IMG/VR virus record: IMGVR_UViG_3300043403_000115
Location: 1 to 33,824 of that record
Strand: one strand, 5' to 3'
Source: a virus
DNA: 33,824 nt
The position numbers and the translations under genes were made by a program. This document shows, in pieces, positions 134 through 31,475 of this stretch. Under the pieces are notes generated by a model that saw nothing but the letters and a program-made list of their open reading frames with translations, was not told where the DNA came from and ran no database searches. Within the stretch, counting starts at the first letter, position 1, and each line of letters begins with the position of its first letter.

Positions 134-1588
134 TCAGACGCTTGGCCTCCACGGGCTCGGGCGGGATCCTCCGAGGACTTCCGCCGACGGGGCTGCCACC
201 CGGCTCATGAGGTCCGTCACGCCCCAGATCGCCGCGTCCGCCCTGTCCGGGCTGGATTCGCCCGTGTAGCCCGTCACGGTGATGGCCATCATTTCGTCTT
301 CCATGCTGGGGAACATGCCGACGTGGTAGACCCTGCTCTGTTCGTAGAGGGCCGCGATGGGCTCTGCCCGGACGACCTTGCCGCGCGTCGCGGTGACCAG
401 CTTCACGGGGATGTTGGGGGCCGCGCTCTTGATCACGCTCTCGACCATCGCGCCACCGAAGTTGCCTTCGGCCACCACGCGGTCAGCATCCCAGTCTTCG
501 TAAGCCTTGGCGACGCGGGCCGACCATTGGTTCGGGCTGGCCACGAGGGTGGCGTCTTCGAGGACGTAGAAGCGGTCTTCGGTCTTCGTCTTGCCGAACG
601 TCACCCCGACCACGACGATTCCGATGGCGTCGCTTTTGGACAGGGGGTTGGCCGCGCCCGAGGGGTCGACGCCGACCACCACGCGGTCAAGCCTTGTCGG
701 CATCGACGCGCGCTGGAACATATCGGCGGTCCAGAGGGCTCCCGGCACGTCCATCAGCAACTCGCCCAGCAGTTCCTGCCTGCCGAGACGGGTGCCGTCG
801 TATCGCCCGCGCAGTTCTTCGATGGCGTGCGACGAGAGGTTGGCGAAGTTGTCCATGGTCGACGCGCGGGTGATCACCACGGCGGGGTCGCCTGCCGCGA
901 ATCTGGCGTTCAGGGTGCGAAACAGGGGCAGGGGCTTGGGGGTCGATGTCAACAACATCCGGGGTTGCTGCCCCTTCGGACCCACCCGACGTAAACCGAA
1001 GCTGGCTTGAGTGTAAACCTCATCGGCGGCTTTGCCCATGCCCGCCAACTCATCGATCCATGCGCCGTTGTGTTCCGGGCCGCGCAGACGCTCCGTCGCC
1101 TCGCCCGTGAAGCTGGTTATCCGGCTGCCGTTCATGAAGTCGATGCGCCACGGTCTGCGGATCACCTTGCGGACCCTGTTCGGGAAGCGTTCGACCAGCC
1201 GCATCAGCCCGGACGGGCCGTCAAAGGTCACCTTGTCCAAGTCGTCGAATGTGGGGCTCACGACGGCGTGCAGGAAGCCCGGCCAGCGGTGGACCTGCTC
1301 CCATGACCACTCTGCCCCCGTGCGGGTCTTGCCCGCGCCCCTGCCTGCCTGCAGCAGCCATGTCATCCAGTCGCCTTGGGGAGCCACCTGATCGGTGCGG
1401 GCGAAGAATCGCCACGGCAGGGCCTTCATGACCCATCGCTCGAATTCGGCTTTGCCGGATCCCGGCATGAGGGTGTTGCGGATGTGTTTGCGCAGGGGCG
1501 GGGACGCCAGAGCGTAGTGGGCTGCCCAGCTTGCGTTGTCGGGCGGGGGGGTTTTGTCGCGGTATTGGTGCTTGTCGATCAGGCTCAA
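134..1588 (-). CDS. terL: terminase large subunit (DNA-packaging ATPase/nuclease)
   Basis: The protein has 484 residues, normal for a phage TerL. The N-terminal ATPase has a Walker A (AGRGAGKT, residues 81-88), a Walker B (GAWIDE, 175-180) and the coupling motif LLTSTPKP (212-219). The C-terminal RNase H-like nuclease shows acidic residues in GVDPSG (D308), VVAEGNFGG (E374) and SPDRADAAIW (D449/D451), so both halves look intact. The family cleaves concatemeric phage DNA and pumps it into the procapsid. The start at 1588 overlaps the stop of the upstream terminase-small-like gene by 4 bp (ATGA), which implies coupled translation. No frameshift or odd feature is visible. The family assignment rests on these motifs; the packaging strategy (cos or headful) cannot be told from here. 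Confidence 0.97.
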   Translation of the reverse strand: MSLIDKHQYRDKTPPPDNASWAAHYALASPPLRKHIRNTLMPGSGKAEFERWVMKALPWRFFARTDQVAPQGDWMTWLLQAGRGAGKTRTGAEWSWEQVHRWPGFLHAVVSPTFDDLDKVTFDGPSGLMRLVERFPNRVRKVIRRPWRIDFMNGSRITSFTGEATERLRGPEHNGAWIDELAGMGKAADEVYTQASFGLRRVGPKGQQPRMLLTSTPKPLPLFRTLNARFAAGDPAVVITRASTMDNFANLSSHAIEELRGRYDGTRLGRQELLGELLMDVPGALWTADMFQRASMPTRLDRVVVGVDPSGAANPLSKSDAIGIVVVGVTFGKTKTEDRFYVLEDATLVASPNQWSARVAKAYEDWDADRVVAEGNFGGAMVESVIKSAAPNIPVKLVTATRGKVVRAEPIAALYEQSRVYHVGMFPSMEDEMMAITVTGYTGESSPDRADAAIWGVTDLMSRVAAPSAEVLGGSRPSPWRPSV

Positions 1589-2256: not shown

Positions 2257-3335
2257 GCAGCATCCTTCCTCGTCTGGTAGGTCTGCCCGCTCTGGACGTG
2301 GACGGCGGACTTGCCGGTCACAGCCTCCCATCGTTCGATCATCGCGTCACAGGTCTCGGGGTCCGGATCGAAGCAGGCTGCCCTGCGCTGGGTTTGCGAC
2401 GCCGCGATGAGGGCCGCGCCGTTGCTCTCGCCCGCGAAGGGGTCGACGAACCATCCGCCCATGGGGACGTGGTTCCGGACGGGCTGCACGAAGGATTGCA
2501 GGGGGGTCTCTGCCCGGCTTGCCCAGACCGTCGTCTGCTTGCGCCCGCCTGCCCATGCCGGGCCCCCGGCCTTGGCGCAGTAGAGCCCGAGGACATGCGA
2601 GGGCGCGAAGCCTGCCTTGCGCGGCGGCTCTGCGGTCGGGACCACGATCTGCGCGCGAATGTCCATCTTGGCCGCGACTGCCGCGTTCGCTGCGACGTGA
2701 CTGCGCAGCCCTGTCGCCCAGAGGTAGGCGATCTTGGCGGGGATGGTGTCCAGCACGGCGGTCAGCGATTCGGCCTTGAGGGCTTTCGGGACTTCGGTGA
2801 CGACCAGCAGGCACGCGGGCGGGATCATCGCCTCAATGGTTGCCGGGTCGCCACCATCGGCGCAGGCCAGCACGCTTGGCCCAAGCTGCCAGAGGTCGCC
2901 TGCCTGCACGACGGGAAAGGATTCCTCGGGGTCGGCTTCCTCGGGGGGTGGACCGAATTCCGGCAGGTCGAACGCGGTCAGGCTGACGTCGAAATCTGCG
3001 AGGGCCAAGAAACGCAGTTCTTCGTCCAGCACGTCCTTGTCCCACGACGATCCCACTTCGCCCAAGCGGTTGTCGCTGATGATGAGGGCGCGCTTCTCGA
3101 AATCGTTCAGGTCGCTGCGCTGCACGGTCGGGACCGTGGTCAGCCCGAGGGTCTTGGCCGCTTCCAGCCGCCCGTGTCCGATCAGGACGACGCCGCCTTC
3201 GTCGATCACCAGAGGCTGAGTCCAGCCCCACTCAGTAATCGCGCGGGCCAGCGCCCGGACCTGCTCTGCCGAGTGGGTGCGGCTGTTCTGCGGGTGGGGG
3301 CGCAGGCTTTCGATGGGCGTGTCGGTGATGATCAT
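2253..3335 (-). CDS. ParB-like domain fused to a degenerate DNA methyltransferase domain
   Basis: The protein has 360 residues. Residues 1-125 are a ParB/Srx-type domain (PHPQNSRTHS at 14-23, LIGHGRLEAAKTLG at 51-64, SDNRLGE at 87-93). Residues 143-350 align in order with the methyltransferase half of the neighbouring gene at 3332-4561, but key motifs are missing. Where that protein has the catalytic DPPY, this one has TEVP (180-183). Where it has EPFSGSGT, this one has DPFAGESNG, and the TQKP motif is absent. It is therefore probably a non-catalytic paralogue, perhaps a binding or specificity partner of the active copy. The start at 3335 overlaps the upstream stop (ATGA), and its own stop overlaps the TerS-like start the same way, so all four genes should be co-translated. 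Confidence 0.82.
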   Translation of the reverse strand: MIITDTPIESLRPHPQNSRTHSAEQVRALARAITEWGWTQPLVIDEGGVVLIGHGRLEAAKTLGLTTVPTVQRSDLNDFEKRALIISDNRLGEVGSSWDKDVLDEELRFLALADFDVSLTAFDLPEFGPPPEEADPEESFPVVQAGDLWQLGPSVLACADGGDPATIEAMIPPACLLVVTEVPKALKAESLTAVLDTIPAKIAYLWATGLRSHVAANAAVAAKMDIRAQIVVPTAEPPRKAGFAPSHVLGLYCAKAGGPAWAGGRKQTTVWASRAETPLQSFVQPVRNHVPMGGWFVDPFAGESNGAALIAASQTQRRAACFDPDPETCDAMIERWEAVTGKSAVHVQSGQTYQTRKDAA

Positions 3336-4561
3336 GCGATTTCCTCGACGCCTTGGCCCTGTGCGGGTTCCGGGGTGTCGATCTGAACCTCGACGCCCGC
3401 CCGCATCAGCTTGGGCTTCTCGCCCGTCCAGCGCGCCCAGCGTTGCGCGCCGACGTCGCAATAGGCGGGGCTCAGTTCGATAGCGACGCATATTCTGCCG
3501 ATCATCTCTGCGGTGACGATGCACGTTCCGGATCCGCTGAACGGCTCGAAAACGACGTCCCCCGGCAGGGTGCAAGTCAACATCGGACGCCTGAAACTTT
3601 CGACCGGCTTCTGGGTGCCGTGCCCGGTGAACGACTTCGAGTGGCCGATCTCCCAGACTGTCGACAGCGCCGGGCCGAACCACTTTGGCTTTGATCCCTT
3701 GCGGACGGCGAAAAAGCACGGCTCGTGGCCGTGGTGATAATGGCCGCGCCCGATGGCGGCTCGATTCTTGACCCAGACGATCTGCGCCTTCACGTCGAAG
3801 CCCGCTTTGACGAGGCTCTCGTGAACGTCCTGCGCCTTGGTGCCCGCGTGCCAGACGAAGGCCACCTTGCCGGTGAAGCCTGCCCAGACTTCAGCCCAAT
3901 CGGCGCGGTCATCGTTCAGCACCACGCCTTTGGCCGATCCTTCGCCGCCCATGCCTGCCTGCTCTCGCCACGCGGGGTCGTATTCGACGCCGTAGGGCGG
4001 ATCGGTGATCATCGCGACGGGCTTCATCGCCATGCATTGCGCCAACAGGTCCGGGCTGGTCGAGTCGCCGCAGTGTAGCCTGTGCCGTCCGAGGTGCCAG
4101 ACGTCGCCCGCTTGGGTGAGAGGGACGGCAGGCGGCTCTGGGGTTTCGTCTTCGTCCTTCGACTTGCTTTTTTGTGCAACGGGTTCGGGGGTGTCAAATC
4201 CGGTCACGGTGATGTCGAGACCGCCGCTCATGATCGCGCGCAGTTCTTCGCCGAGAATGTCGGCATCCCAGCCCGCGCCGAATTCGTGCAGCCGGTTGTC
4301 CGCGACAATCAGCGCCCGCGCCTGCGCTTCGCTCAGGTCCGACCGGACGACGACCGGGATCGTCGGCAGCCCTGCCGCGATGGCCGCTTGGGTGCGCGCG
4401 TGCCCGATCAGGATCACGCCGTCTTGGGTGATCACGACGGGCTGGGTGGTGCCGAAGGTCTGCATCGCCTCTGCCAGCAGGTCGATCTGGTGTGCGGTGT
4501 GCTTGCGGCTGTTCCTCGGGTGAGGGATCAGGGTCTTGGGGTCGCGTTGTTCGATCTGCAT
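3332..4561 (-). CDS. ParB-like domain fused to a DNA N6-adenine/N4-cytosine methyltransferase
   Basis: This 409-residue protein has an N-terminal ParB/Srx domain (PHPRNSRKHT at 14-23, LIGHARTQAAIAAG at 51-64, ADNRLHEFG at 87-95). A charged linker (KSKSKDEDE) leads to an intact amino-methyltransferase domain. The catalytic DPPY lies at 187-190, TQKP at 316-319, and the SAM-binding EPFSGSGT at 339-346. DPPY before FxGxG is the beta-class order. Such fusions are common in phages and modify phage DNA, often to evade host restriction; the target site cannot be read from the sequence. It lies directly upstream of a degenerate paralogue, with a 4-bp overlap. A GACTTGC hairpin element (4161-4180) lies within the linker codons. 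Confidence 0.93.
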   Translation of the reverse strand: MQIEQRDPKTLIPHPRNSRKHTAHQIDLLAEAMQTFGTTQPVVITQDGVILIGHARTQAAIAAGLPTIPVVVRSDLSEAQARALIVADNRLHEFGAGWDADILGEELRAIMSGGLDITVTGFDTPEPVAQKSKSKDEDETPEPPAVPLTQAGDVWHLGRHRLHCGDSTSPDLLAQCMAMKPVAMITDPPYGVEYDPAWREQAGMGGEGSAKGVVLNDDRADWAEVWAGFTGKVAFVWHAGTKAQDVHESLVKAGFDVKAQIVWVKNRAAIGRGHYHHGHEPCFFAVRKGSKPKWFGPALSTVWEIGHSKSFTGHGTQKPVESFRRPMLTCTLPGDVVFEPFSGSGTCIVTAEMIGRICVAIELSPAYCDVGAQRWARWTGEKPKLMRAGVEVQIDTPEPAQGQGVEEIA

Positions 4562-4568
4562 GGCTGCC

Positions 4569-4844
4569 TCAGTCGTTCCAGCGTTTCGGGATGGTGCCGC
4601 GCATGATGGTTCCGTCGATGTTGGCGACGTAGGGCTTCCCGCCATGGCCGTTCTTGCGCATCGTCCGGACGATCCTGCGCAGGGCGACGATTCGGGTGTT
4701 GCCCGTCAGCCTGCGGGTTCGGGTCTTGCTCTGCACAGCATAGGTCGCCACGGCGTGAAAGATTCCCCTGACCGGCTCGATCTCGATTTCGATCAGCGCC
4801 TGCGCTCGCGTCGCGTCGCGCACACTCTGGGCATCCATGCTCAT
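4569..4844 (-). CDS. small basic protein of unknown function
   Basis: The product has 91 residues and a basic, Arg-rich C-terminal half (TRTRRLTGNTRIVALRRIVR) ending in KRWND. I do not recognise a family. The start at 4844 is supported by a GGAGG site 6-10 nt upstream and an ATGA overlap with the nuclease gene before it. A second in-frame ATG two codons later is possible. It lies in the packaging/methyltransferase operon, 7 bp before the methyltransferase gene. The positive charge would suit nucleic-acid binding, but that is a guess. Confidence 0.75.
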   Translation of the reverse strand: MSMDAQSVRDATRAQALIEIEIEPVRGIFHAVATYAVQSKTRTRRLTGNTRIVALRRIVRTMRKNGHGGKPYVANIDGTIMRGTIPKRWND

Positions 4845-5443
4845 CTGTGAACCTCCGTCTTTGCCCTGTAGCCCCGAAAAATCGCCGACACGGGGCCTTG
4901 GCGGGTTTCGGGCCCCACCATCCGCTTTTCGGGCTGGCGCTGCCACAGCCCCTCGCACAGCGCCTCCTGTAGCGATCTGGTCTCCATCAGGATTGGCGGG
5001 TGGGGATATCCGAACAGGTTTGCCCGGGCGGTCGCGGCGGTGTCCGTCACGATGAAGGTCTGATCCCAACTGCAGCGCAACGTCAGGGTCCGCTCGCCCC
5101 GATCCGACGCCCGGATGGCCCACGCCTCCTGCCCCGAACGGTAGACGCCGTCCTGTGCCTTCAACTCGACCCATGCCCGCCCTGCCTGCCCTGCCCCGAT
5201 GTAGCAATCCGGCAGCCCGGCCTTGGTGCGGTCTTCGATCCGCTCGCCGAACCAGCGCAGGCGGTCGATGATCGGCTGCATGGCCGTCCAGAGGTCGGAT
5301 TCGGTGCGGATCAGTTTGCCCATGCCGGGAAGTGTTAAACACCCGTCCACATCGGCGCAAGAGGCGCGCGCGGTTTGCGCGTATGTCGATTCTGGACCTT
5401 TGGGGCCGATTCCTGCCTCGGGTGGCATATGCCCGACCGTCAT
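4841..5443 (-). CDS. VRR-NUC (PD-(D/E)XK) nuclease
   Basis: The C-terminal 160 residues carry the hallmark of small phage VRR-NUC nucleases: an N-terminal acidic helix (RTESDLWTAMQPIIDRL), then TKAGLPDCYIG followed by AWVELKA. These form the PD...ExK metal-binding core, which is complete. The family cuts structured or recombining DNA. The start at 5443 forms a TGATG overlap with the upstream stop and has AAGG about 8 nt upstream. An alternative start at 5323 (MGKLIRTES) would give the compact 160-residue domain seen in many relatives but has no visible ribosome site. The start is therefore uncertain while the domain is not. Confidence 0.82.
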   Translation of the reverse strand: MTVGHMPPEAGIGPKGPESTYAQTARASCADVDGCLTLPGMGKLIRTESDLWTAMQPIIDRLRWFGERIEDRTKAGLPDCYIGAGQAGRAWVELKAQDGVYRSGQEAWAIRASDRGERTLTLRCSWDQTFIVTDTAATARANLFGYPHPPILMETRSLQEALCEGLWQRQPEKRMVGPETRQGPVSAIFRGYRAKTEVHR

Positions 5444-5760
5444 CAGGCTGCCTTGGCTTCGTGCTGATGCTTGCCCGTGCAGCGCAGGGTGCTGTTCATG
5501 GCATGGCTGCACGGCTCGAACCAGCGACAGGCTTCGCACTTGGCGCAGAACGCCTCGTAGGCTGTCATGCGCTTCGGCGCGGGTTCGGGCCTCGGGATGA
5601 TGCCCTTGCGGATGGCGGCTTCGGTCTTGCAGGCAGCGCGCCGTGCTTCGGCTTCGGCTTCGGCCTTGGGGTCATCGTTTTCGATGGCGGTGAGGACGTC
5701 TGCGAAGGCTTTCGCGGCGGCTGCGGTGAGGTCTGCATCGGTGAGGTCTTGGAGGGTCAT
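5443..5760 (-). CDS. Cys-rich small protein, possible zinc binder
   Basis: The product has 105 residues. The first half is Ala/Glu-rich and probably helical (AEAEAEARRAACK). The C-terminal part has a compact cluster, C72-x2-C75-x2-C78-x5-C84-x-H86, then C94 and H98/H100, which looks like a metal-binding knuckle. I do not recognise the family. The G-rich inverted repeat lies between it and the helicase gene upstream, so it may be transcribed separately or through a structured leader. Its stop overlaps the proposed nuclease start (TGATG). Confidence 0.72.
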   Translation of the reverse strand: MTLQDLTDADLTAAAAKAFADVLTAIENDDPKAEAEAEARRAACKTEAAIRKGIIPRPEPAPKRMTAYEAFCAKCEACRWFEPCSHAMNSTLRCTGKHQHEAKAA

Positions 5761-5788: not shown

Positions 5789-5948
5789 TTTCCGGGGGGT
5801 CCGGGGGGTTCCGGGGGGTCTGGGAGTCGGCCCCCCCGATTTCACCTTCTCGCGCGTGTGTGTGTATGGATGAATACAACCAGTAGGTAGGCCGTTTTTA
5901 CCAAGGGGGATTACACGACCCCCCGGAACCCCCCGGACCCCCCGGAAA
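5789..5948. repeat. perfect 32-bp G-rich inverted repeat with G-quadruplex potential
   Basis: The left arm (5789-5820) and right arm (5917-5948) are exact reverse complements over all 32 bases. Each arm holds three runs of six G (or C) spaced by TCC and TTCC. On the plus strand a further GGG follows at 5823-5825, completing a four-tract G-quadruplex pattern. The 96-bp middle includes a GT run and an A/T-richer stretch (5863-5913). It is the only sizeable gap among the minus-strand genes, just downstream of the helicase gene. It could be a replication origin, a transcription barrier or terminator, or a recombination site. The structure is certain and the role is inference. Confidence 0.9.
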
Positions 5949-5960
5949 TTTCGTTCGTCA

Positions 5961-7691
5961 TCATTCGAGCATCTCCACCCTGATTGCGGACGTCGTTTTG
6001 CCCTTGTCGTTCTTCATCTTGTCCACCCGAAGCCGCATCCCGTCGGCGCTTCTGTCCGCGAATTTCCGCAGCCGGATGGCGACCATCGCTCCGACCTTGC
6101 CGACGGCTTTTGCGTGCGCTTTGTTGTGATCGTGCTGCTCATCGGGAGTCGGGTTCGGGTGGAGCCTGCGGGTGATCGGGGCCATGGCCTCATCGTCGAT
6201 GTTGAACAGGCTTGCGGTCTCATCTGGGGCTTTCATCAGCATTTGGCCAACCGTGACTGCCGCCGTTCCGTCGCCGTGGTGAATGTCCGTCGAGACCTTC
6301 CGCAGCGCGTGCAGGAATTCCGCCAAGGCTCCCGCATCCCAAGACGGCGCGGTCTCTTTCCACTGGTCAAGCAGGTTGTGTTTCCCGCTCAGGGTCATGA
6401 AAGGCAGGGCGATGCGCCTGAACCACCCCGGAAAGCGTCCGATCTGCCCGGCGTCTGCCACGGGGGTTTCGGTGATGATCCGGGTGAGGGCGACGATGAT
6501 CGACGCGCGGTTGTTCTTCGTCCATTGCCGCAGGGAGACGCGGTTGTAGCTTGGCGGCTTGCCGTCCTTCAGCACCAACCGCACTTCGAGAAGCCGCGTT
6601 GCGGTGTCGCTGAACGGCTGGATGTTGTTCCCGGTCAGGATATTCATCGCATGGCAGGGCGCGTTGACCATCTGGCTTTGCCCGAGGATCCGGGCGCTCC
6701 ACACCATCGACGTCAGAAGCTGGTCGAAGATCGAATTCTTGAGGTTCATCCCGTTCGGGATGTTGTCCCAGATGATCGTGTCGACGTCGGCCATGACGAG
6801 GCTGGTGACCAGCTTCTGCATTTCGGTGTTGTCCTTCTCTGGCCACGGCGTGTCGCCGACGTCTTCGCCCGCGACGACTTCGACCAGCGCGTGCGCCAGT
6901 TCGCTCTTGCCTGTCCCGGCGTCCGGGGCGCTGATCAGGAAACCCGGAAACTTGCCCTCTGCCATCAGGTGTGTCTTCGTCATCAGCATCGTGGCGGGGA
7001 TCAGCAGGGCGCGGACGGCGTCTTCGTAGGTGTCAAACGACGTCTCTCCCAGCCATTCCTCGACCAGCCATTTCAGCAGGTCTGCGGGGGTGTCCGTCAT
7101 TGCCTCGGGCCGCACCTTGGCTGCCATGCTGGCCTTGATCATGAAGCGGCTGGTGCGGTCGTAGCCCTTGTCGCCGTGGACCAGCTTGCCGTCCATGACG
7201 ACGGGGTGGCGCAGGATACCTTTCAGGGTGGGAAATTGGTCGACGCCTGTCTTGATCAGCAGGCTCCGGATCCAGTCGGGGATGGGCTTGGAGACGGGTC
7301 CGTCGGCATTCTGCTTGAAAAACCGGGCGACGCCTTCGATGTGGCCTGTCGCGCTATGCTCGTTTAACGGCACCGGGCGGGCGGTGGTGGCGCGGATGGT
7401 GTCTTCCTCATCCAGAAAGGCTTCGACTTCGGCTTCGACGATCTGCACGGGCTGGTCTGCGAAGCGGTAGACCGTCGGCTGGGTTTGCTTGGAGATCAGT
7501 CCCCGGATTTCGGTGGCGACGTCGGCTCGGGTTTCGGTGTGGACGTCGAATCGAGGAATTTGTGCGGGGCCTGTCGACGGGATGCTCTGGGAATTCATCT
7601 TGTCGAGAAGGGCTTTGGGCAGGCTCATCACGTTCGACTTGGGGGCTGCTCCCTCGGGTGCGCTTTCGGATGAGTCGTTCGGGTCAGCCAT
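5961..7691 (-). CDS. replicative helicase, SF3/VapE-like AAA+ ATPase
   Basis: The protein has 576 residues. About 240 N-terminal residues of unclear fold precede an ATPase core with Walker A SAPDAGTGKS (254-263), Walker B DVDTIIWDN (302-310), a sensor strand MNILTGNNI (349-357) and a following TATRLLEVRL arginine. That layout matches the superfamily-3-like helicase half of phage primase-helicases (D5/VapE type). A C-terminal region of about 200 residues, rich in Lys and Arg, may bind DNA. The start at 7691 overlaps the primase gene by 8 bp, so primase and helicase are encoded as a coupled pair rather than one fusion. They probably act together at the phage replication fork. The helicase call is solid at superfamily level. 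Confidence 0.85.
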   Translation of the reverse strand: MADPNDSSESAPEGAAPKSNVMSLPKALLDKMNSQSIPSTGPAQIPRFDVHTETRADVATEIRGLISKQTQPTVYRFADQPVQIVEAEVEAFLDEEDTIRATTARPVPLNEHSATGHIEGVARFFKQNADGPVSKPIPDWIRSLLIKTGVDQFPTLKGILRHPVVMDGKLVHGDKGYDRTSRFMIKASMAAKVRPEAMTDTPADLLKWLVEEWLGETSFDTYEDAVRALLIPATMLMTKTHLMAEGKFPGFLISAPDAGTGKSELAHALVEVVAGEDVGDTPWPEKDNTEMQKLVTSLVMADVDTIIWDNIPNGMNLKNSIFDQLLTSMVWSARILGQSQMVNAPCHAMNILTGNNIQPFSDTATRLLEVRLVLKDGKPPSYNRVSLRQWTKNNRASIIVALTRIITETPVADAGQIGRFPGWFRRIALPFMTLSGKHNLLDQWKETAPSWDAGALAEFLHALRKVSTDIHHGDGTAAVTVGQMLMKAPDETASLFNIDDEAMAPITRRLHPNPTPDEQHDHNKAHAKAVGKVGAMVAIRLRKFADRSADGMRLRVDKMKNDKGKTTSAIRVEMLE

Positions 7692-9060
7692 TCTTGGTCT
7701 CCATGCTTGCGATGACGACGGCGTCCGTCGCGGGGTTGTAGCGGGGCAGGGGGTTCAGGTGCAGGTCGTCATAGGCATCGTGCTGGGGCTTCATCATTTC
7801 GGTCGCGCGCCAAGCCAAGACGCGGGCAGCCTCGACGGCGTCAGGCGTGTTTTCCTGCAGCCAGTATCCGGCGATGACCGCCGCGATTTCCTGCCAGTTC
7901 AGACGGCACCTTGCGAGGGCCATGGCGAGGGGCATCGCGTTCGACAGGTTCGGTCGGTCGCTTTCGATGGGGCTCTTGCGGTCGATGGTCAAATGGACCG
8001 CCTGCAGGTCTCGGCTAAGGTCGAGAAGGTGCCCCCAGCGGGCATTGGCTGCCCCGAAATCCGCAGGTTCCAGCGCTGGCAGGACGGGGGCCCCTTTGCG
8101 ATGCCATGCTGCGAAGAAATCATGTGGTTGGCGGTGTGCGCAGGATCCGTGGTAGCAGTTCACCCCCGACGGGCGCGACACCCGATAGCCTGATCCGGTC
8201 ACGCTGCCGCCTGTGTGTTCGTCCGCAAAGGGGCATCGGACGGCAATCCAGCCTTGGCTGTTCGGGGCGGCTTCCAGCGTCTGGCCTGTGTCGGACAACC
8301 ACGTCAGGAGGGGGTCATCGCCGCTCTGCACCATGACCGCTTGGCCTGCGCTGACGAGGATGGGGCGGCTCGACTCCATCGGCAGGTCGAAGCCTTGCGG
8401 GCCGAACAACATTTCCGGGTTGGGAACGAAGCGGCGCTTCCAGTCTTCGAAGACAATCCGGGCGGGAAAACCTCTCCCCTTGGGGTCGCTTCCCGGCAGC
8501 CGTGCGAGGCGGATGAGGGCGGTCCTGCCTGTGCTGCCGCCCGCGTCCGCATGCCCCGCCTTGATCAGTGTCCGCATCATCCTGTCGATGGCCGACGCCT
8601 CGCGGAAAGGCTGGGTGAAAACATACCACCACTGTTCGCTGCCCGGCTTGGTCTCGATGATGACCGTGGGCTTCAGCTTCGGTGGGGTCAGGGTCGCGCC
8701 GTGCTTTTCTTCGCCGACGTCGTCCAGAACGATGGCGAGGTTCCCGGTCCAGCTTTCGGCGCGGCGCAGAAACTTCGCCCTGTCTGCGACCGAGTTGATC
8801 CGGAACAGGCCGACGGAGACGTGGGTGAATTTCGGGCCGATGATGGCGGTCTCGCGCCATTCGGTGACGGGCTGCTTGCCGTCGGCGTTGACCCAACTCA
8901 GGGCGGGGCGCTCGTGCGCCCAGTTGATCGTGTTGCCGACCAGATTCTTGACGAAGGCGGTCGGGTCGATATCGTGTGGAACGGTTTGGGGGGTTCCGGC
9001 GTTTTTTTCAGGGTGATTCGGCTTGTCGCAATGGTCTGATTCGTCTAAATTTGGTGCCAT
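7684..9060 (-). CDS. RepB/AEP-type DNA primase with C-terminal zinc motif
   Basis: The product has 458 residues. The central region has AIVLDDVGEE (D113/D114) and, after about 60 residues, GGSTGRTALIRLARLPGS. This fits the archaeo-eukaryotic primase fold of RepB-like and phage primases. A zinc-knuckle-like part follows: a Cys in VRCPFADEHTGGS and the cluster CYHGSCAH at 302-309, familiar from phage primase C-termini. The start at 9060 has a GGAGAG ribosome site 7-12 nt upstream; an in-frame start 28 codons earlier would lie in the leader hairpin and has no ribosome site. It is the first gene of the minus-strand operon, immediately after a terminator-like hairpin. Primer synthesis for phage replication is the expected role. 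Confidence 0.8.
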   Translation of the reverse strand: MAPNLDESDHCDKPNHPEKNAGTPQTVPHDIDPTAFVKNLVGNTINWAHERPALSWVNADGKQPVTEWRETAIIGPKFTHVSVGLFRINSVADRAKFLRRAESWTGNLAIVLDDVGEEKHGATLTPPKLKPTVIIETKPGSEQWWYVFTQPFREASAIDRMMRTLIKAGHADAGGSTGRTALIRLARLPGSDPKGRGFPARIVFEDWKRRFVPNPEMLFGPQGFDLPMESSRPILVSAGQAVMVQSGDDPLLTWLSDTGQTLEAAPNSQGWIAVRCPFADEHTGGSVTGSGYRVSRPSGVNCYHGSCAHRQPHDFFAAWHRKGAPVLPALEPADFGAANARWGHLLDLSRDLQAVHLTIDRKSPIESDRPNLSNAMPLAMALARCRLNWQEIAAVIAGYWLQENTPDAVEAARVLAWRATEMMKPQHDAYDDLHLNPLPRYNPATDAVVIASMETKNG

Positions 9061-9089
9061 ATAGGCTCTCCTGCACGAGGGCTTGTGTG

Positions 9090-9123
9090 AAAAAAACGGG
9101 GCGGGCTGGCGGGCCTGCCCCGT
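9090..9123 (-). terminator. intrinsic terminator/attenuator in the primase leader
   Basis: Bases 9096-9106 pair with 9113-9123 (11 bp, one G-T pair, 6-nt loop). Read on the minus strand the stem is followed by seven T (complement of A 9090-9096), a textbook intrinsic terminator. It ends 30 bp before the primase start. No gene on that strand ends upstream, so it should act as an attenuator of the replication/packaging operon or stop antisense transcripts. Confidence 0.8.
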
Positions 9124-9131
9124 TCGCATTC

Positions 9132-9158
9132 GGGGTTCGGCCATGATGACCGAACCCC
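9132..9158. repeat. 9-bp inverted repeat in the divergent control region
   Basis: GGGGTTCGG (9132-9140) pairs exactly with CCGAACCCC (9150-9158) around a 9-nt centre. It sits directly upstream (minus sense) of the leader terminator, so it may be an operator or a competing leader hairpin. Promoters for the two divergent operons must lie in 9124-9240, but I see no convincing -35/-10 pair there. Confidence 0.7.
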
Positions 9159-9254
9159 TCTCCGAAATCCAGCCGGGACCGGCGCTTCATCGGACTTGCC
9201 TGCCGGTGTTTAACATGGCAGCCTTTTCGGGTCTTTTCTGAAAGGGATGTTGAA

Positions 9255-10193
9255 ATGGAAAGCAAGGCGAAGGTTATTCCAATCACCGCTGCGACGGGGA
9301 CCGTGACGGTCCATCCTGCGGCGGCTGTCTTCCGGTTGTTGTCGGAGGACGACTTGGCGGCTCTGGCTGCCGACATTGGCCAGCAGGGTCTTCTGGAGCC
9401 CATCGTGGTCGATCAGCACTGGCAGATCATCGACGGACGAAACCGGCATGCGGCCTGTCTTCTGGCCGGGGTGGAGCCTCACTTCGTCACGCTCGAGACC
9501 GACGACGAGGACGAGATCAAGGCGTTCATCTGGTCGAAGGGTGGCCTTCGCCGGAACGTGACGCAGGGCCAGCGGGCGATGGCCTTCGCCCTGCTTTACC
9601 CCGAGGGGCATCAGGGGCAGAAGAACCTCGTTCACTCAGTGAACGAGGTTGGCAAAGTCTACGTCGCCTTCGCCCGCAAGGTGCTGCGCTGGACGCCGCT
9701 GGCGGCGGCGGAGGTGCAGATGGGCGCGATGCAGTTGAAAGCGGCCTATGACGCCGCGTGTGTCATCGAAAACGCAGCCAAGGAAGCAAAAAAACAGAAA
9801 GACTTGGAGGCGCAGACCGAAAGTGAAAAACAGGCCAACATGACCGCGACGACGGCGGCGGCTCTGGCCCAGATCGAGAAGGACGCTCCCGATCTTGCCG
9901 AGTCCATCGCCCTCGGGGAAATGACGCTGATCGCCGCGATTCAGGAGTTGGATTCCCGCGCAAAGCTGAAAAGCGTCAATCAGGTCCACGCTGTCAAGGC
10001 CATGGTTCAGGCGGCGCGACTCGGGAATGGGCTGGCGCAAAACTTCGCGTTCAATGCCGAGGCGCTGGTGAGGCTGACCGATTGGATGGGCAAGAACGAG
10101 GCCATGACCATCGACGACCTTGAGGCTGGCCTTGTTCTTTTGGCCGAACACTTTCCGACGCTTCTGCAGATCGTTCGGGAGGTGAAATCGTGA
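9255..10193 (+). CDS. ParB/Spo0J-like DNA-binding protein
   Basis: The protein has 312 residues. Residues 30-80 form a ParB N-terminal domain (LLSEDDLAALAADIGQQG, then LEPIVVD and IIDGRNRHAACLLAG at 58-72). A helical DNA-binding-type region follows (GGLRRNVTQGQRAMAFALLY) and then a Lys/Glu-rich helical C-terminal half. No ParA is encoded next to it. ParB-domain proteins of phages act in plasmid-like partition, in transcription control or as nucleases; which applies here is unknown. It is the first gene of the rightward early operon, with CTGAAAGG 9 nt before its ATG. A perfect 27-bp palindrome is embedded in its own coding sequence, and tandem palindromic repeats follow the operon. The stop overlaps a GTG start (GTGA). 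Confidence 0.83.
   Translation: MESKAKVIPITAATGTVTVHPAAAVFRLLSEDDLAALAADIGQQGLLEPIVVDQHWQIIDGRNRHAACLLAGVEPHFVTLETDDEDEIKAFIWSKGGLRRNVTQGQRAMAFALLYPEGHQGQKNLVHSVNEVGKVYVAFARKVLRWTPLAAAEVQMGAMQLKAAYDAACVIENAAKEAKKQKDLEAQTESEKQANMTATTAAALAQIEKDAPDLAESIALGEMTLIAAIQELDSRAKLKSVNQVHAVKAMVQAARLGNGLAQNFAFNAEALVRLTDWMGKNEAMTIDDLEAGLVLLAEHFPTLLQIVREVKS
9624..9650. repeat. perfect 27-bp odd palindrome inside the ParB-like gene
   Basis: AACCTCGTTCACT (9624-9636), a central C (9637) and AGTGAACGAGGTT (9638-9650) form a perfect 13-bp inverted repeat. It encodes KNLVHSVNEVG in the ParB-like protein. Such symmetry is not expected from coding constraint and suggests a protein-binding site, possibly for the protein itself. 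Confidence 0.85.
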
Positions 10194-10741: not shown

Positions 10742-10775
10742 GCGGGCGACTTGCATAAAAAAGCAACTCGCCCGC
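10742..10775. repeat. 13-bp stem hairpin with A-rich loop
   Basis: Bases 10742-10754 pair with 10763-10775 with one mismatch, around the loop ATAAAAAA. The inner part, GACTTGC-loop-GCAA, matches the dispersed element at 31008. It lies 27 bp after the end of the 10190 gene. With no T tract after the stem it is not a standard terminator on the plus strand. Confidence 0.8.
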
Positions 10776-10778
10776 GCT

Positions 10779-13792: not shown

Positions 13793-13799
13793 AAAGGTG

Positions 13800-15645: not shown

Positions 15646-16109
15646 TTCGCCCTTACCTCTCCCCGCTTCTGTCTGTCCTCTGGTGGTCGGCTCTTGCGAC
15701 TTGCTTTTTCATGCAAGTCGTCGGGGCTGCCGATGCCGGGACGGTTTCCGGCCCTGCCACGAAGGTGGTGGACGGCGACACGCTCTGGGTGGGTGGCGTG
15801 AAGATCCGGCTCAATGGGGTGGACGCCCCGGAAATGGACACCGACCTTGGCCGTCGCGCGCGGCTGGCCATGTATGAAATCGTCGACGGGCGGCAGCTTG
15901 CCTGCGACCTGTCGGGGGCCAAGTCCTATGACCGCTTGGTGGGGGTCTGCACCCTCACCACGGGGCCGCAGGCGGGCTCTGACGTGGGCGCTGTCCTCAT
16001 CATGCAGGGCTTTGCTCTGGACTGCCCCCGTTACTCTGGCGGGCGCTATGCGGACTTGGAAACCGCCCGCGCGCAGGCGATGATCCCGTCGTCGAATTAT
16101 TGCGACTGA
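15642..16109 (+). CDS. exported staphylococcal-nuclease-like (SNase) protein
   Basis: The protein has 155 residues with a signal peptide (about 1-31: MIRPYLSPLLSVLWWSALAT, then CFFMQVVGAADA). The SNase core follows: VVDGDTLWV (D44, D46, T47), IRLNGVDAPE (R56, D61, E64) and YDRLVG (R98). These match the Ca2+-binding and catalytic residues of Staphylococcus nuclease (D21, D40, T41, R35, E43, R87), so it should be active. The start at 15642 overlaps the previous stop (GTGA); an in-frame GTG three codons upstream is possible. Part of the signal sequence (TCFFMQV) is encoded by a copy of the dispersed GACTTGC hairpin. The mature enzyme would act in the periplasm or outside the cell on DNA or RNA. 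Confidence 0.88.
   Translation: MIRPYLSPLLSVLWWSALATCFFMQVVGAADAGTVSGPATKVVDGDTLWVGGVKIRLNGVDAPEMDTDLGRRARLAMYEIVDGRQLACDLSGAKSYDRLVGVCTLTTGPQAGSDVGAVLIMQGFALDCPRYSGGRYADLETARAQAMIPSSNYCD
15697..15720. repeat. GACTTGC-type hairpin within the SNase signal-peptide codons
   Basis: CGACTTGC (15697-15704) and GCAAGTCG (15713-15720) pair perfectly around TTTTTCAT. It is the longest uninterrupted stem of this repeat family in the window. Confidence 0.8.
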
Positions 16110-16146: not shown

Positions 16147-16200
16147 ACCTTCTGATTCATGCGGCGGGGCTGTCCCATCGCTGTCTGAAAGGTTCCTGCA

Positions 16201-31007: not shown

Positions 31008-31029
31008 GACTTGCATAAAAAAGCAAGTC
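31008..31029. repeat. GACTTGC-ATAAAAAA-GCAAGTC hairpin
   Basis: A perfect 7-bp stem (31008-31014 with 31023-31029) with an 8-nt A-rich loop lies in the 74-bp gap before the next unit. The loop and flanks match the 10748 copy except for one stem base, and differ by one base from the minus-strand reading at 4161-4180. Confidence 0.82.
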
Positions 31030-31067
31030 GAGCGAACACGGCGACTCGAACCTGAAAGGATAGACCC

Positions 31068-31475
31068 ATGATTCCCGTAATTGTCCAAAAGCGCAGCCGT
31101 ATGATCCCCGTCGACCACGGGCTTTATCGGCGGGTGCAGCCCGTCAAGGTTGCCGCCGTGTCCTGCCCCGATGCGAACGAAGCCCTCAGCCTTCTGCTGT
31201 CTTGGTATTGGCGCTGCCGGGACGGCGGCGGGGTGATCCTTAATGGCATCCCGCAATGGGAGGCCGACCTTCTGCACGCCATCGGTGTGCTGGGTCGCCC
31301 GGTCACCTACGGCATCCAGACCGCCCGCCGCGATGCCCTGCCTTCTCTGGTGCAGGTCGCCGACGAGATCAGCGTCGCCCTCACGGGCAGCGAGGTCCGG
31401 GGGGCCGCGTCGATCAGCGCCAAGGGGATCGAATACTTCATGGACCGCGAGCCCTCTTGGGCGGGGGGTGTGTGA
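31068..31475 (+). CDS. hypothetical protein
   Basis: The product has 135 residues with alpha/beta character (ANEALSLLLSWYWRCRDGGG, VILNGIPQWEADLLHAIGVL). No family was recognised. CTGAAAGG ends 8 nt before the ATG, so it is the first gene of the last early unit, although no clear -35/-10 pair is seen between the hairpin and this start. TGATG overlap with the next gene. Confidence 0.72.
   Translation: MIPVIVQKRSRMIPVDHGLYRRVQPVKVAAVSCPDANEALSLLLSWYWRCRDGGGVILNGIPQWEADLLHAIGVLGRPVTYGIQTARRDALPSLVQVADEISVALTGSEVRGAASISAKGIEYFMDREPSWAGGV

Follow-up and report, generated by a model that had tools for sequence, protein, structure and literature searches.

The self-loading Rep helicases of SaPIs and the Cch2 helicase of SCCmec bind iterons located directly downstream of their own genes, and do so via their C-terminal domains (PMC7581432). 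The origins of PICIs likewise lie immediately 3' of the initiator gene and comprise two sets of iterons (PMC6092414). In the plasmid pRN1, the origin is a stem-loop of ~100 nt downstream of the primase-helicase gene, the integrity of which is required for replication; it was described by its authors as an origin without iteron structure, and a similar stem-loop was reported in Bordetella phage BIP-1, for which an origin was proposed (PMC4234260). The alpha protein of phage P4, as described in the same source, is a primase-helicase whose winged helix reads the repeats of the origin (PMC4234260). The locus analyzed here belongs to a 33.8-kb IMG/VR virus fragment, the whole of which is referred to as the window, and consists of a perfect inverted repeat just beyond the 3' end of a helicase gene. 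This repeat is a real, conserved, helicase-linked iteron array. Judging from its sequence and by analogy with the systems above, it is very probably the replication origin of the phage, an origin of the iteron type bound by the phage's own helicase.

Anatomy of the inverted repeat

The two arms of the repeat, each 32 nt long and 100% complementary, are separated by 96 nt (Table 1), and were described exactly, down to the absence of any mismatch, in the initial annotation, which had also correctly placed them downstream of a helicase gene and near a primase gene. The helicase-proximal arm and the end of the helicase gene are 12 bp apart, which places the repeat immediately 3' of the proposed initiator gene. 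Given the base composition, ~6e-12 perfect 32-bp repeats with a spacer of up to 300 nt are expected by chance in the window, and no other inverted repeat that reaches 14 bp within 400 nt was found anywhere in it. The main point missed by the initial annotation is that each arm is made of three 9-10 bp direct repeats. The unit, CCGGGGGG, is repeated in tandem with steps of 9 and 10 bp, and the self-match of the helicase-distal arm peaks at a lag of 9 (0.78); besides the six copies in the arms, there is one further copy in the window, at position 31397. Each arm also contains three G6 or C6 tracts and, as had been noted, a GGG at 5822-5824 completes a G-quadruplex pattern on the + strand.

Table 1. 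Features of the window at and around the inverted repeat.
Feature	Position	Strand	Remarks
Large terminase	134-1588	-	
ParB-like / DNA methyltransferase protein	3332-4645	-	phrog_498
Small Cys-rich ORF, downstream of the repeat	5443-5760	-	Kept in the 65-kb relative
Helicase-distal arm	5789-5820		Iterons CCGGGGGG at 5792-5799, 5801-5808, 5811-5818
Spacer	5821-5916		96 bp, 46% AT; putative strand-opening site
Alternating purine-pyrimidine tract CGCGCGTGTGTGTGTATG	5851-5868		Longest in the window
Helicase-proximal arm	5917-5948		Inverted iterons CCCCCCGG at 5919-5926, 5929-5936, 5938-5945
Helicase C-terminal domain, proposed iteron reader	5964-6374	-	Winged-helix topology in model, mean pLDDT 87
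AAA+ helicase, proposed iteron-binding initiator	5961-7691	-	576 aa; Walker A APDAGTGKS; PHROG matches include 'DNA polymerase/primase'
Primase, RepB_primase-like, directly upstream of the helicase gene	7684-9144	-	

All genes around the repeat, among them a putative nuclease gene, are encoded on the - strand. The repeat therefore sits within one codirectional run, and not where opposed transcription units meet. GC skew, which had been suggested as a check, is uninformative, with no clear switch at the repeat site. Several other repeated elements were observed in the window. Palindromes of the GACTTGC...GCAAGTC type, A/T-rich at the centre, are dispersed over the window (10748-10778, 15698-15728 and 31008-31038, as well as ~4160 and ~11000) and are possibly phage terminators or operator sites. 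The 20-mer GTTAAGGCTGGCCTTGACAA, which has a TTGACA-like hexamer at its end and recurs at 13797, 14506, 16110, 17084 and 21674, is possibly a shared early promoter, and the leader CCTGAAAGGA...CCATGA, found around start codons at 16185, 17949, 21734, 26923 and 31048, is possibly a common translation signal.

The corresponding gap of a 65-kb relative holds a different perfect repeat

The IMG/VR genome G001 (65,305 bp) is largely collinear with the window, and its helicase and terminase are 70% and 82% identical, respectively, to those of the window; it was taken as circular because its ends overlap by 141 nearly identical nucleotides. The comparison of the same gap in relatives, proposed in the initial annotation, could be made for this phage, in which alone among the exact relatives the gap is spanned. 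The gap holds a different, perfectly paired 29-bp repeat with a 113-nt spacer, the sole repeat of its size in G001. The presence of a perfect repeat at this place in both the window and G001 makes it unlikely that the repeat is an assembly artefact of a single contig. The contig of a third relative (L037) stops, at its position 1, just where the Cys-rich gene starts and the inverted repeat is expected to begin. Assembly breaks are common at long inverted repeats, and assemblies may break at such arrays and hide them.

G001 also contains, upstream of the primase gene (L003 3700-4480, corresponding to ~56.1-56.9 kb of G001), a G-rich array of ~780 bp of the GGCGNGGC type with recurring AGGCGGTC and a GC skew of 0.297, which is missing from the short gap of the window at 9145-9254. 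Elsewhere, a search of phage records at the DNA level yielded zero matches, the 25-nt core of the arm had no exact match in viral contigs, and Rfam returned low-scoring microRNA hairpin models only, far below cut-offs. Matches to looser patterns in viral and genome contigs were rejected as collagen-like repeats, short hairpins or chance, and those in Rhodobacteraceae as short terminator-like hairpins. In a viral contig of 72% GC, a long reading frame contains GGGGGGTCCGG repeats at its 3' end (L041, 9816-9970). The sequence CCGGGGGGTCCGGGGGG is present in 6 to 21 copies in three Rhodobacteraceae genomes (L050, L053, L056-L065; reversed control, 0), typically beside a short G/C hairpin and an AAATA motif, and resembles a family of host terminators or repeats; it is conceivable that the phage unit and similar short-hairpin motifs of some Rhodobacteraceae hosts are historically linked.

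Paired arrays recur at homologous helicase genes

Homologs of the helicase were obtained by searching, with a helicase profile, genomes of the family, order and class to which one Rhodobacteraceae genome belongs (Alphaproteobacteria); this succeeded where a peptide-pattern search for the helicase in genome contigs had found none; the three homolog neighbourhoods that were looked at were all prophages. For 49 non-redundant loci with a readable 3' end, arms with a score of 14 or more near the helicase stop codon were counted as paired. Using this definition, paired arms were present at the 3' end of the helicase gene in 30 of the 49 homologs, and none of 47 control windows taken from these loci had them (p 6e-10, an optimistic value given that the homologs come from related genomes and their independence is incomplete). 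A clear paired array is lacking at 19 of the 49 homologs, as well as in large phages such as RcXuper, RpAliso and MD18. Hence, the helicase and the array are not obligately linked.

The mean self-match of the arms at lag 9 is 0.69, versus 0.29 in controls, and 26 of 32 loci score highest at this lag. The units comprise at least 12 distinct sequences, every one of them present in both arms of its locus, and these vary by prophage group (GGGGACCTT, GGGGAACAT, GGGGGCCTT, TGTGAACCT, GTGTGAGGT, GGTGAATGT, GGTGGACGT, ACGGGTTTA, GGGCTTC, GGGTTTG, CCGTATTAA and TTTGGTGGG). The layout is therefore kept in related prophages with differing repeat sequences, and the 9-bp period is common to them. Of 29 scored arms, 26 have the G-richer copy, as read on the coding strand, on the helicase-proximal side. 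In the most closely related prophage group, the 3' tail of the helicase reading frame contains the array, so that the 9-bp unit encodes a tripeptide repeat. The suggestion that a G-quadruplex is a functional part of the element is not supported by this comparison: the repeat of G001 has no canonical G-quadruplex pattern, and many homologous sites carry units such as TGTGAACCT or GGTGAATGT.

The recurrence of the array bears on two other readings of the locus. The terminase gene of the window, ~4 kb from the repeat and on the same strand, would suit a packaging (pac/cos) or recombination site, but prophages whose terminase is of a different type (gpA) still have the array next to the helicase, which makes this reading barely credible. 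A transcription block, regarded as the main alternative in the initial annotation, could take the form of a terminator or of an mRNA-stabilising hairpin between the helicase and the downstream genes. The repeat of the window is indeed intergenic and downstream of a long reading frame, and CCGGGGGGTCCGGGGGG stands beside short G/C hairpins in some Rhodobacteraceae genomes. These genomic elements, however, are short-loop hairpins of another layout, whereas the repeat would form a stem-loop with a 32-bp stem and a 96-nt loop, and no short-loop G+C hairpin followed by a T run, as in an intrinsic terminator, occurs within it. Moreover, the flanking genes are codirectional, the helicase reading frame of the closest prophage group contains the array, and a terminator would leave the covariation between unit and helicase, described below, unexplained. 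A role in transcription is for these reasons very unlikely.

Iteron units covary with the helicase C-terminal domain

The relation between iterons and helicase was analyzed at 13 loci, with iteron units delimited by hand. The similarity between units correlates with the identity of the C-terminal domains when the identity of the AAA+ domains is controlled for (partial r 0.38, permutation p 0.002), and the reverse partial correlation is 0.12. Near-identical AAA+ domains carry different units where the C-terminal domains differ; for instance, the helicases of loci L094 and L095 are 95% identical in the AAA+ domain and 68% in the C-terminal domain, and their units are 74% identical. The primase also varies among loci, being RepB_primase-like in the window, of the Toprim type in L094, L096 and L123, and a Prim-Pol with PriCT_2 in L119; the helicase and the array therefore travel together while primases change.

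The structural model of the C-terminal domain of the window helicase consists of helices followed by a two-stranded wing. Its fold matches are weak and include winged-helix domains of MarR and of ORC subunits, a generic winged-helix similarity only; the SaPI Rep structure is not among the matches, which is uninformative either way. A model of the full-length helicase was set aside (pLDDT 41), its fold search being meaningless. On the basis of the covariation and of this model, it is proposed that the iterons are read by the C-terminal winged helix of the helicase.

The array might instead be a centromere or operator bound by a regulatory protein, ParB-like or otherwise. The window encodes ParB-domain proteins at two places (3332-4645 and 9255-10193), and a ParB-methyltransferase gene is also found downstream of the helicase and array in two prophages. 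The array, however, tracks the 3' end of the helicase gene and the helicase C-terminal domain, and similar arrays exist in pRN1, for which a replication function has been shown and whose record annotates three genes only, leaving such a site most improbable.

A further alternative holds that a cruciform or hairpin, rather than a set of binding sites, is the essential feature, so that what counts is that the arms can pair, whatever their sequence. The arms are perfect in the window, in G001 and in BPP-1, with a symmetry that extends even to the linkers, a single strand of the repeat folds far better than shuffled sequence (z -5.9), and the replication of pRN1 needs the integrity of its stem-loop (PMC4234260). 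Perfect pairing that includes the linkers in the window and G001 favours pairing or gene conversion. Pairing alone, on the other hand, does not require the 9-bp internal repetition of the arms; across ten other loci, paired units are scarcely more alike than unpaired ones (0.86 versus 0.80, p 0.10), and variant units are permuted between the arms in L094 and L096. An element defined by pairing only is thus unlikely. Binding sites are favoured, with pairing as a possible addition, because the repeated units within an arm are left unexplained by pairing.

The spacer and a candidate mechanism of initiation

The initial annotation had pointed to an A/T-richer centre as suited to an origin. This is correct for the window (46% AT, versus 36% AT for the window as a whole) and does not hold in general, since the AT content of the spacer ranges from 25 to 55% across loci, with most close prophage relatives at 25-35%. 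What the spacers share is hence not an AT-rich melting region but an alternating purine-pyrimidine tract: the longest such run of both phage genomes is in the spacer (18 nt in the window and 32 nt in G001), and runs of 28-36 nt are present in nine close prophage loci (L094-L099, L101, L137 and L139), compared with at most 14 nt in control windows. The tract may adopt Z-DNA or may simply ease opening, both being conceivable.

As a replication origin, a possibility already raised in the initial annotation, the array is supported by the recurrence of its layout at homologous helicases in prophages, by its covariation with the C-terminal domain and by its match to published origins located 3' of their initiator genes. 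Helicase binding, melting of the spacer and the start of replication at the array are what we infer from these lines of evidence. Just beyond the 3' end of the helicase gene, the origin would consist of two inverted sets of three 9-10 bp iterons that flank a spacer. The AAA+ helicase would bind these iterons via its C-terminal winged helix, assemble as a ring on each arm and open the spacer, perhaps aided by the alternating purine-pyrimidine tract, and the forks would then be primed by the phage primase.

Comparison with described origins

The array resembles the pri-rep origins of PICIs and SaPIs in its location just 3' of the initiator gene, in its two iteron sets around a centre and in its element-specific iterons, and the proposed reading of iterons by the C-terminal domain of the window helicase, based on sequence and modelling, would parallel that of the self-loading PICI/SaPI helicases. 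Unlike these elements, the array is carried by tailed phages and prophages with terminases, and both the window and the circular 65-kb relative have a large terminase. The phage arms are inverted and have a 9-bp period, the PICI iterons being compared here by description, without spacing or orientation. In place of the AT-rich region of PICIs, the phage centre has a variable AT content, as given above, and an alternating tract. The Cch2 gene of SCCmec is likewise followed just downstream by direct repeats, in that case three 5-nt iterons (PMC7581432), which its helicase binds via the C-terminal domain, as is predicted for the window helicase; unlike the window, with its two sets, Cch2 has a single iteron set. 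Compared with P4, by description only, the difference lies in the primase, of the Toprim type in P4 and RepB_primase-like in the window.

Like pRN1, the window has a large inverted repeat beyond the 3' end of the helicase gene, and this repeat varies in sequence between relatives (PMC4234260). The 9-bp period, which first came to light in the phage arrays, is also present in the stems of pRN1, pHEN7, pRN2 and pDL10 (self-match of 0.60 at lag 9, reached in 0 of 5000 shuffles). BPP-1 shows it as well (11/13), with TTGCCTCGT twice per arm and a 60-nt spacer with a 14-nt alternating tract. A profile of the window helicase family detects neither ORF904 of pRN1 nor the BPP-1 protein, and the resemblance to pRN1 and BPP-1 is hence a likeness of working, not family membership. 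It is possible, and we put it forward tentatively as somewhat short of an even chance, that helicases with a C-terminal winged helix generally use an origin built of inverted arms of 9-bp iterons around a spacer, a design encompassing alphaproteobacterial phages, BPP-1 and archaeal pRN plasmids. If so, the 9-bp step would correspond to one winged helix per unit in an assembling ring, an exchangeable winged helix would set origin specificity, and stem-loop and iteron origins would form one class. The varied units found with near-identical AAA+ motors, as in L094 and L095, make such a recognition code testable. The 9-bp period ties together two origin types previously described as different, and a layout like that of PICI and pRN1 origins is now seen in tailed phages and prophages. 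By analogy, the best explanation of the array is that it works like the origins of PICIs and of plasmid pRN1, both of which lie 3' of helicase genes.
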